Shown piece after piece: positions 2,711 through 8,634 of a stretch of DNA of 20,868 nucleotides. Source of the DNA: a virus. The stretch spans positions 1 through 20,868 of IMG/VR virus record IMGVR_UViG_3300042340_000211. One strand, 5' to 3'. The notes beneath the pieces were generated by a model, which was given only the letters and a program-made list of their open reading frames with translations, did not search any database and was not told the DNA's origin. A program made the translations under genes and the position numbers. The number at the start of each line of letters is the position of its first letter. Within the stretch, counting starts at the first letter, position 1.

Positions 2711-2819
2711 AGAAATAGTGAACGGTCTGCTAGACGAGATAGCACGATTGAATGCGTTGATAGAGCAACTGAAGTCTGAAATACATACAGCGAACTTGGA
2801 AAGATTTAAACATGATTGA
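2691..2819 (+). CDS. Short coiled-coil protein (42 aa)
   Basis: A 42-aa helical protein, EEIVNGLLDEIARLNALIEQ and onward, with leucine/isoleucine heptads typical of a coiled coil from about residue 7 to 37. It overlaps genes on both sides, with ATG 2691 inside the upstream ORF and an 8-base overlap into the WhiB-like gene. It could be a dimerising partner or regulator of a neighbour; no family is recognised. Confidence 0.5.
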   Translation: MTQKKSEEIVNGLLDEIARLNALIEQLKSEIHTANLERFKHD

Positions 2820-3111
2820 CCTTAAACATTTAGATTGGTTTGATAATGCGCTGTGTCGCGGAATGAAAACAAGTATTTTCTTTCCTGAGACTGCTGTCGG
2901 TGTGTCTACTGCTGGTATCTATGATGAAGCGGTGAAGGTTTGTGAGCGTTGCCCTGTCGCTGAGAAGTGTTTGGCTTACGCTATGGAATGCGAAACGAAT
3001 GACATAAGAAGGTACGGTGTGTGGGGTGGTAAGACCCCGAGAGAGCGAGAGTACCGTCGTCATGGTGGTACGGGCGGTAAGTTAAATGGACTTGCCCCGC
3101 TACGACGCTAG
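2812..3111 (+). CDS. WhiB-family iron-sulfur transcriptional regulator
   Basis: A 99-aa WhiB-like protein. The four iron-sulfur cysteines are Cys15, Cys44, Cys47 and Cys53 (C...C-x2-C-x5-C), followed by the G-V-W-G-G turn at 69-73 and a basic tail suited to DNA contact. WhiB proteins carry a [4Fe-4S] cluster and usually bind the primary sigma factor to change promoter choice. Phage versions are known, and mycobacteriophage TM4 WhiB is reported to interfere with host WhiB2. The gene closes the rightward cluster. Its codons are richer in T and G than those of its neighbours (TGT, GGT, GCT), which suggests a later acquisition. The family is almost certain; the targets are unknown. Confidence 0.92.
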   Translation: MIDLKHLDWFDNALCRGMKTSIFFPETAVGVSTAGIYDEAVKVCERCPVAEKCLAYAMECETNDIRRYGVWGGKTPREREYRRHGGTGGKLNGLAPLRR

Positions 3112-7995: not shown

Positions 7996-8002
7996 GATAT
8001 CT

Positions 8003-8197
8003 CTAGAATCCGCAAGCCTCGCGGAATCTCTCAGAATCAAAACGCGAATTATCCTCTCGCATATAATCCTCAAAACCGCCATTATCTAGAAAACATTTAA
8101 ACGCCCATTTGAACATCTCTCTATCCTTGCTATCTGACGGAATTTCAAGCGCGGACTTTATAGCCTGCGCTAGTTCGTTGTAATCTTTCCGTGTCAT
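8003..8197 (-). CDS. Conserved small phage protein (64 aa)
   Basis: A 64-aa protein, MTRKDYNELAQAIKSALEIP and ending NSRFDSERFREACGF. The opening M-T-(R/K)-K-D-Y and the closing N-x-R-F-D-x-x-R-F-x-x-A-C-G are the two ends of a very common uncharacterised phage protein. I use ATG 8197, preceded by GGGGAAAG; extending to 8287 would mean translating the hammerhead ribozyme. The middle part (DREMFKWAFKCFLDNGGFED) is longer than I recall as typical. The family call is secure, the function unknown. Confidence 0.85.
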   Translation of the reverse strand: MTRKDYNELAQAIKSALEIPSDSKDREMFKWAFKCFLDNGGFEDYMREDNSRFDSERFREACGF

Positions 8198-8221
8198 TCT
8201 TTCCCCTATCTGTAAGTTATC

Positions 8222-8280
8222 TGACGGACTCGTCAGCGAGAGCGATACCCTCGGACGCCTAACGGCGTTTCGTCCTATCA
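8222..8280 (-). ncRNA. Type II hammerhead ribozyme
   Basis: Read on the minus strand from 8280. Stem II 5' side is GGAC (8275-8272), then GAAA (8271-8268). Stem III is ACGCC-GTTA-GGCGT (8268-8255); the cleavage triplet GTC ends at 8254. Stem I is CGAGGG (8253-8248) with CTCTCG (8242-8237), then core CTGACGA (8236-8230) and stem II 3' side GTCC (8229-8226). This is the complete hammerhead core (CUGANGA, GAAA, A15.1-U16.1, C17) with open stem II, hence type II. Cleavage is expected between 8254 and 8253. Three further pairs (8280-8278 with 8224-8222) may extend stem II and include the stop codon of the gene ending at 8278. Confidence 0.92.
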
Positions 8281-8634
8281 TCCCCAAACTACCTCGCCGA
8301 GTACCGCGAATTGTAGGATTGCGTCACCAGAGCAAGCGTCCATATCAGACACTTGATACCCTTTCACCGATAGAGCGCTGTAAGCATTGAGAATATCGGC
8401 AACAGATAATTTTTTGGTCACTGTTGGCGCTTTTCCAAAATCTTCTTCGGGCAATTCTGATTCTATTTTCAACTCTAGAAAAGGCTGATAGATATCTTCA
8501 GGATATTTATTCCAATTAGTACCCTCGTCATACTTTTCTTTACGCCACCAATCCCAACTCTCATAACAAGAGCCCAAAATCCCACCGAGAATTTCCTCAA
8601 TTTGAGATTTTGAAAGTTCAATTTCAACTTTCAT
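8278..8634 (-). CDS. Hypothetical phage protein, first gene of leftmost-reading unit
   Basis: A 118-aa acidic protein: MKVEIELSKSQIEEILGGIL then SCYESWDWWRKEKYDEG, a strand FLELKIESELPEEDFGKAPT, and KLSVADILNAYSALSVKGYQ followed by DACSGDAILQFAVLGEVVWG. The C-terminal D-A-x-x-G-D-A-I-L-Q-F-A-V-L-G-E-V-V-W-G block is familiar from uncharacterised phage proteins. It is the first gene after promoter P4; GAGAGGGAAAAG precedes the ATG. Its TGA lies inside the stem II region of the hammerhead, so self-cleavage would leave this message with a ribozyme-derived 3' end. Confidence 0.75.
   Translation of the reverse strand: MKVEIELSKSQIEEILGGILGSCYESWDWWRKEKYDEGTNWNKYPEDIYQPFLELKIESELPEEDFGKAPTVTKKLSVADILNAYSALSVKGYQVSDMDACSGDAILQFAVLGEVVWG

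Follow-up and report, generated by a model that had tools for sequence, protein, structure and literature searches.

We analysed an IMG/VR virus record of 20,868 bases, IMGVR_UViG_3300042340_000211 (positions 1 to 20,868, here called the window), which comes from a tailed phage. The terminase encoded in the window matched 37 records of a phage collection, including 29 from Streptomyces and 5 from Mycobacterium; identity was below 60% in all 37 and 24-26% in the 25 of them that were listed, and no DNA match to the window as a whole was found in the collection. A gene for a WhiB-family transcription factor lies at 2812-3108 on the plus strand (Pfam E 8.8e-17). The terminase relatives in Streptomyces and Mycobacterium, together with the WhiB gene, make an actinobacterial host likely. 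The features considered here all lie on the minus strand and are given in the direction of transcription.

8704-8676, minus strand: sigma-70-like promoter of the operon, TTGACA-17 nt-TATAGT (consensus match only)
8634-8278, minus strand: upstream gene of 118 aa, family g17, without a Pfam match
8275-8226, minus strand: type II hammerhead ribozyme (core and stems I-III) with a predicted cut at 8254/8253, from descriptor, covariance model and fold
8236-8221, minus strand: competing anti-core hairpin CUGACG-AGUC-CGUCAG, from the predicted fold
8197-8003, minus strand: downstream gene g1 of 64 aa, with its ATG at 8197 behind AGATAGGGGAAAGA
7995-7954, minus strand: class A tRNA-like element with P1 GCCUAG/CUAGGC and two hairpins, followed by ACAA and a hairpin at 7949-7938 (model E 0.0045)
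7906-7769, minus strand: 45-aa gene flanked by the two class A elements
7758-7717, minus strand: class A tRNA-like element, followed by ACAA and a hairpin at 7712-7703 (model E 0.0003)
7668-7336, minus strand: 110-aa gene following the second class A element
4993-4954, minus strand: class C tRNA-like element, followed by ACAA and a hairpin at 4949-4938; also present in many relatives

The start of g1 was placed at ATG 8197, in preference to TTG 8287, on the basis of its leader and of the relatives. The leader (C/T)AGATAGGGGAAA precedes three successive starts on the minus strand (8212-8200, 7921-7909 and 7683-7671), and three such matches were reached in 0 of 100 shuffles. We mapped the first operon left of the terminase in 18 loci, where it mostly runs promoter, gene, element, gene, element, with some gaps free of elements. 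In six of them (the window, L009, L010, L059, L068 and L071) an additional first gene is set apart from g1 by a hammerhead; in eight (L003, L008, L011, L012, L020, L021, L060 and L069) g1 directly follows the promoter without a hammerhead. L014 and L064 carry hammerheads ahead of other genes; L005 and L013 have neither of these arrangements around g1. Genes also swap between slots: the relative of the 118-aa gene in L068, which is 43% identical, is followed by a tRNA-like element and not by a hammerhead. Beyond that relative, a search of IMG/VR for close relatives of the 118-aa protein gave four stretches that fit a pattern, none of which was confirmed.

The letters between the 118-aa gene and g1 read, on the minus strand, GGAC GAA ACGCC GUUA GGCGU C / CGAGGG UAUCG CUCUCG CUGACGA GUCC. 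The two halves of stem II are GGAC (8275-8272) and GUCC (8229-8226), stem III is formed by ACGCC/GGCGU, and stem I by CGAGGG(U)/(G)CUCUCG. The first-pass annotation had proposed that every hammerhead core position is present on this strand, and the letters bear it out: GAAA lies at 8271-8268, CUGACGA at 8236-8230 and C17 at 8254, so that C3UGANGA9, G12AA14, A15.1-U16.1 and H17 are all found within 8271-8230. Since all core positions are present and stem II is open, the hammerhead was assigned to type II. A strict descriptor demanding at least 4, 3 and 4 pairs in stems I, II and III matched once in the window and not at all in 200 dinucleotide shuffles, both strands being searched; type I and type III descriptors had no match in the window. 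Folded alone, 8280-8222 adopts the hammerhead structure at -21.7 kcal/mol; 21 of 200 shuffles folded equally well or better (z -1.4), and folding energy by itself is therefore not evidence for the hammerhead. The ribozyme had also been described as beginning on the upstream stop codon, which holds for part of the structure only: the TGA occupies 8280-8278 and the minimal ribozyme begins 3 nt later, the stop codon being paired solely in the extended stem II of the predicted fold.

Relatives were collected from 79 loci fetched by the terminase, using the descriptor after lowering its stem I minimum to 3 pairs; this gave 12 matches in 11 loci. A plus-strand match in L048, which the covariance model R1 did not find, was treated as false. 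Stem II varies among the relatives, being GGAC/GUCC, GACC/GGUC or GUCC/GGAC; L078 and L079 have GGCC/GGCC. Scanning for an exact pattern with GGAC/GUCC as stem II gave at least 120 stretches, with 163 structural matches (at least 3 pairs in each stem) against 167 pattern starts. At least 5 pairs were found in stem III in 157 of these 163 and in stem I in all of them, neither being demanded by the pattern. The corresponding scan with GACC/GGUC, likewise a lower bound confined to the stretches listed, gave 132 structural matches against 136 pattern starts. For covariation we aligned 53 hammerheads, taking one sequence of at most 56 nt from each of the first 45 among 65 pattern loci, adding 8 from relatives and leaving the window out; the rows had been filtered beforehand by the descriptor, yet few pattern places had failed it. 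In this alignment 98.2% of cells were paired and 264 cells carried a double-sided change. The covariation score was reached by 0 of 500 shuffles and all three stems covary; pairs showing at least one double-sided change numbered 12, which is not above the shuffles (11.1). A covariance model built without the window scored the window hammerhead at 61.9 bits (E 8.8e-18, a rough value given the short calibration). Taken with the core, these sequence comparisons strongly support the identification of 8275-8226 as a type II hammerhead, as the first-pass annotation had claimed.

An Rfam covariance search had been named there as one means of checking the ribozyme, and the lack of a significant match as grounds for refuting it. 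It assigned no family in the window at the gathering score, and at E<=10 over 8000-8400 the only hammerhead reported was type I, at 14.1 bits (E 2.6). At the gathering score Rfam was equally silent for 12 loci containing 33 comparable type II places (28 pattern matches and 5 descriptor hits), and its silence in the window thus speaks about the library and not about this RNA; the relatives' own model, as described above, matches strongly. A loop I-tail pseudoknot is common in published type II hammerheads, and we considered whether it is part of the architecture here. Such pairing is possible in the window (4 bp, UAUC with GAUA), and in the large set it was present in 6 of 148 against a permuted mean of 6.8; it was not supported as a general feature. 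That the RNA is a degenerate, inactive relic kept by chance would agree with the lack of an Rfam match and with the competing fold described below. However, all core positions are kept, in the window and in relatives whose stems differ, and we regard this explanation as very improbable indeed.

The genomic position of hammerheads was assessed with 148 unique sequences from the GGAC/GUCC scan (stretches listed), 128 of which had enough flanking sequence. Intercistronic placement, defined as a stop codon no more than 100 nt ahead of the cut and a start no more than 120 nt past it, was found for 118 of the 128; of 1280 random places on the same strands, 342 had it. The stop lay 20-39 nt ahead of the cut in 92 of 128 and the start 40-59 nt past it in 100 of 128; the distances in the window, 23 nt from stop to cut and 57 nt from cut to start, are typical. 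Hammerheads fell inside a mechanically listed same-strand open reading frame in 35 of 128 cases, compared with 917 of 1280 random places. Intercistronic placement is thus the usual context in the phage contigs examined, and, with the locus maps, it lends good support to the earlier assignment of the ribozyme to a site between two genes of a leftward operon. From this placement, cutting between the two genes by the window hammerhead is probable.

What the first-pass annotation had singled out, the use of a hammerhead between cistrons, stands out less than it supposed. Type II hammerheads, and hammerheads flanking prophage genes, were already described in 2011, when the processing of phage transcripts into single-gene mRNAs was proposed and cutting was shown for other loci (Perreault et al., PMC3088659); that report calls the function of hammerheads among phage genes unclear. 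Because the intercistronic context is usual and message cutting was proposed then, the window hammerhead by itself adds no new kind. It has in common with the type II hammerheads described there the permuted architecture with open stem II, the core and the intergenic site in phages; it differs from that account in that the pseudoknot is unsupported in the large set, an anti-core hairpin is predicted in the clade, and the operon is shared with tRNA-like elements (PMC3088659).

The chief doubt over hammerhead activity concerns the anti-core hairpin. When 45 nt of tail were included in the fold, the minimum free energy (MFE) structure of all nine clade hammerheads paired core CUGAN with NUCAG in or next to the tail in place of stem II. 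In an energy model that has no tertiary contacts, the tailed MFE lay 0.7 to 5.0 kcal/mol below the hammerhead fold and the predicted hammerhead share was 6.5e-5 to 0.08. The hairpin is predicted to become possible when the tail has been transcribed or following cleavage, and the predicted downstream cut product of the window consists of the stem I hairpin and the anti-core hairpin. The complement in the tail follows core position 7 in 32 of 151 hammerheads of the GGAC set (permuted mean 20.3, maximum 30 of 2000 permutations) and in 68 of 113 of the second, GACC/GGUC set (permuted mean 57.7, maximum 65 of 2000), figures that place it in only part of the hammerheads. On these predictions the competing fold could mean slow or regulated cutting, and the hairpin may either release the cut product or keep the ribozyme off.

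The second of these options would make the RNA a regulated switch, in which the anti-core hairpin usually wins and cutting occurs only briefly during transcription or when ribosomes or a ligand block the hairpin. The nine of nine MFE structures fit this proposal, as does the tracking of core position 7 beyond the permuted tails in both sets; moreover, as the upstream stop codon abuts the ribozyme, a terminating ribosome would cover its 5' strand. However, a complement in just 32 of 151 of the GGAC set argues that such control is not general, stem II is complete before the tail is transcribed, and we saw no ligand domain. We therefore consider a switch rather unlikely, and read the hairpin preferably as an aid to the parting of the two products after the cut.

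The first-pass annotation only touched on the structured RNAs in the next two gaps of the operon. They are real, a further one lies at 4993-4954, and they do stand out: the tRNA-like neighbours are the more novel part of the operon. Class A is a small three-way junction with a 6-bp P1, a 3-bp hairpin whose loop usually ends in RG, and a second hairpin with the loop NUCRNN, which in the second copy has 8 nt unless a C.A mismatch is allowed. On the 3' side come one A, the closing strand of P1, ACAA, a further hairpin and the ribosome-binding site. The strict element descriptor missed the copy at 7758-7717, whose MFE structure as a single sequence has other pairs. Relatives carry a second form, class B, with the loop UUCRAU. 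A class B model was built from 20 sequences without the window (a joint alignment of A and B, in which P3 was misaligned, was not used for counts); 94.9% of cells were paired in its alignment, and the covariation score was reached by 0 of 500 shuffles. Both class A copies of the window were among its 50 matches in 83 sources, the class A matches being marginal (E 0.0003 to 0.066).

A class B pattern in which P2, the loops, the TG joint and AC.A were fixed, with P1 and P3 left free, was found at 75 places in 63 IMG/VR contigs. P3 was paired in 4 of 4 positions at all 75 places, and P1 in 6 of 6 at 73 and in 5 of 6 at the other two. In 84,980 cellular genomes the same pattern had two matches only, both without the pairing; these, in Alteromonas genomes, were set aside as chance (P1 1/6, P3 2/4 paired). 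Class A and B elements are intercistronic (stop at most 60 nt before, start at most 100 nt after) in 126 of 128 unique cases, against 343 of 1280 random places, with a median distance of 7 nt from the stop codon to P1. Of the 120 loci that the GGAC pattern had yielded, 100 were searched with the class B model without a match, so hammerheads look more widely spread than class B.

Class C has the acceptor GGGUG/CACCC, the linker ACUGGCAGACA and the T arm UCGGGG-UUCAAGU-CCCCGA, with a canonical T loop of 7 nt. Pairing was tested on 38 unique sequences chosen for their linker and T loop, irrespective of pairing: all 190 acceptor cells and 226 of 228 T-stem cells were paired, compared with maxima of 167 and 189 in 500 permutations. 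Class C also occurs in mycobacteriophage Konstantine (L402/L409) and Streptomyces phage Lika (L414), where the fold lies in several intergenic gaps, not in all, and is often followed by a second hairpin. A blastn search with the 68-nt class C region of Konstantine reached 345 places, some partial, in 135 phage records (107 Streptomyces, 26 Mycobacterium and 2 Microbacterium); 59 of 60 rows listed lay outside annotated features, and the one in LittleE lay under a gene on the opposite strand. Hammerhead model R1 matched none of six phage records reached through this search, and had no match in a 24.9-kb part of OX376640, a 22.5-kb part of RosePharie, or L402; model R2 gave one weak match in OX376640 (E 0.0026). 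A separate Konstantine gap (L409, 7372-7520) holds a T arm without the usual layout of acceptor and linker, perhaps a further reduced tRNA-like form.

These elements are not tRNAs, as they have no anticodon arm and no CCA end and were not detected as tRNAs: ARAGORN found no tRNA in the window and 22 loci, and Rfam had no tRNA match in the window or 5 loci and returned nothing for the neighbour RNAs at the gathering score or at relaxed E. The silence of both programs is expected for RNAs without an anticodon arm. P1 is followed by AC.A in 84 of the 102 unique class A and B cores; the C75 position of CCA is C in none of these 102, a figure inflated by relatedness, and base 75 is likewise C in 0 of 38 class C sequences. 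Classes A and B have loops of 6 nt in place of 7, and joint lengths unlike those of tRNA. What the elements do have, by the class B and class C counts, is an acceptor-like stem together with a T-arm-like hairpin. In a tRNA the acceptor and T stems have 7 + 5 bp; the class C pairing gives an acceptor/T helix of 5 + 6 bp closed by a T loop, the kind of helix found in substrates of RNase P. Bacterial RNase P cleaves hairpins made of an acceptor stem, T stem and T loop, and prefers CCA in a phage T4 precursor (PMC11143913). Class C shares with the model substrates and phage tRNA precursors of that source the acceptor stem and T arm, the UUCRA loop and a 3' 'AC'; the tRNA-like elements differ from its RNase P substrates in lacking C75 and an anticodon arm and in lying between protein genes (PMC11143913). 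The missing C75 should weaken recognition and so counts against RNase P cutting. On balance, the elements are probable sites of RNase P or RNase Z.

Alternatively, the tRNA-like neighbours could be a new class of self-cleaving ribozyme in hammerhead-type slots, given that their intercistronic placement is the same as that of the hammerhead and that the loop letters of class B are conserved. However, the conservation follows a D-loop/T-loop-like pattern with an acceptor-like end and does not centre on the junction, and the T loop of class C is an ordinary one of 7 nt; we judge this reading improbable. More improbable still is that the elements are DNA-level boundary sequences for recombination of accessory genes, RNA structure being secondary. 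In the 18 locus maps gene families do change slots, and element types mostly keep to theirs, as expected of such boundaries; the stems, in contrast, change on both sides and keep their pairing, for which DNA homology would not select.

We favour instead, at a probability of roughly 0.8 and from sequence comparison, the reading that the hammerhead cleaves the leftward message at 8254/8253, splitting the 118-aa gene from the 64-aa gene, that the tRNA-like gaps are cut by RNase P, and that the elements act as insulators. Hammerhead cleavage leaves a 2',3'-cyclic phosphate and a 5'-OH as standard. In the proposed sequence of events, the type II hammerhead at 8275-8226 would cut the transcript at this site, leaving an upstream product that ends in the stem III hairpin and carries the cyclic phosphate, and a downstream product that starts with the stem I hairpin and the 5'-OH. 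Because the hammerhead is of type II, both product ends would be closed by hairpins and hence presumably protected. The spent core CUGACG would then pair with CGUCAG, displacing stem II, and the two messages would part. In the other gaps, the anticodon-less tRNA-like RNAs would be cut by host RNase P at the acceptor's 5' end; RNase Z, for which the lack of CCA would be suitable, may act on them as well. As a net effect, genes reshuffled in the accessory operon would gain their own mRNAs with standard 5' leaders. That cutting between genes is a function shared by both kinds of element can be argued from the presence of a covarying tRNA-like element in the same type of slot and, in a relative, behind the same gene family.

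More tentatively, with the chances a little short of even, we suggest that actinophages possess two interchangeable cutters, a hammerhead with a release hairpin and undescribed anticodon-less and CCA-less mimics that use RNase P or Z, each placed between a stop and the next ribosome-binding site and creating shufflable cassettes. If so, cassettes could be reshuffled without disturbing each other's expression, and the class C mimics of Konstantine and the Streptomyces phages would belong to this arrangement. A literature search over titles and abstracts, with few subscription papers in scope, returned nothing on tRNA-like elements between phage genes.

The start-associated and extended start-associated (SAS) repeats of cluster K mycobacteriophages, partly inverted, lie upstream of the starts of non-structural genes (PMC3203893). 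The window elements resemble them in being repeated, upstream of starts and carried by an actinophage, and the 17-bp inverted repeats of cluster K are not described as tRNA-like in the accessible part of that source (PMC3203893). The 13-bp SAS GGGATAGGAGCCC had four matches in the window, each with 3 mismatches (2.0 expected) and none of them in an element gap, so that its presence does not exceed chance. In RiboJ-type synthetic insulators, a hammerhead and a following hairpin stand ahead of a ribosome-binding site and yield a standard leader. The order of hammerhead, hairpin and leader is the same in the window, where the hammerhead is natural, of type II and placed between the genes of an operon. 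In mitochondrial transcripts, tRNA folds between genes serve as cutting signals (tRNA punctuation), whereas the window has reduced mimics in place of true tRNAs, alternating with a ribozyme. Hammerhead and tRNA-like elements together are a candidate natural insulator system, and the RNA ends are directly mappable in the class C phages that grow on M. smegmatis and Streptomyces.

In 8 of 9 gaps the reading frame of the gene that follows the hammerhead continues upstream without a stop through the ribozyme (8287-8198, minus strand, in the window). This counts against the favoured reading; it is perhaps a by-product of the fixed letters. Four loci (L240, L230, L228 and L253) each carry an array of six or seven class B elements on a single strand, at spacings of mostly 300-700 nt; L240 and L230 appear to be the same phage.
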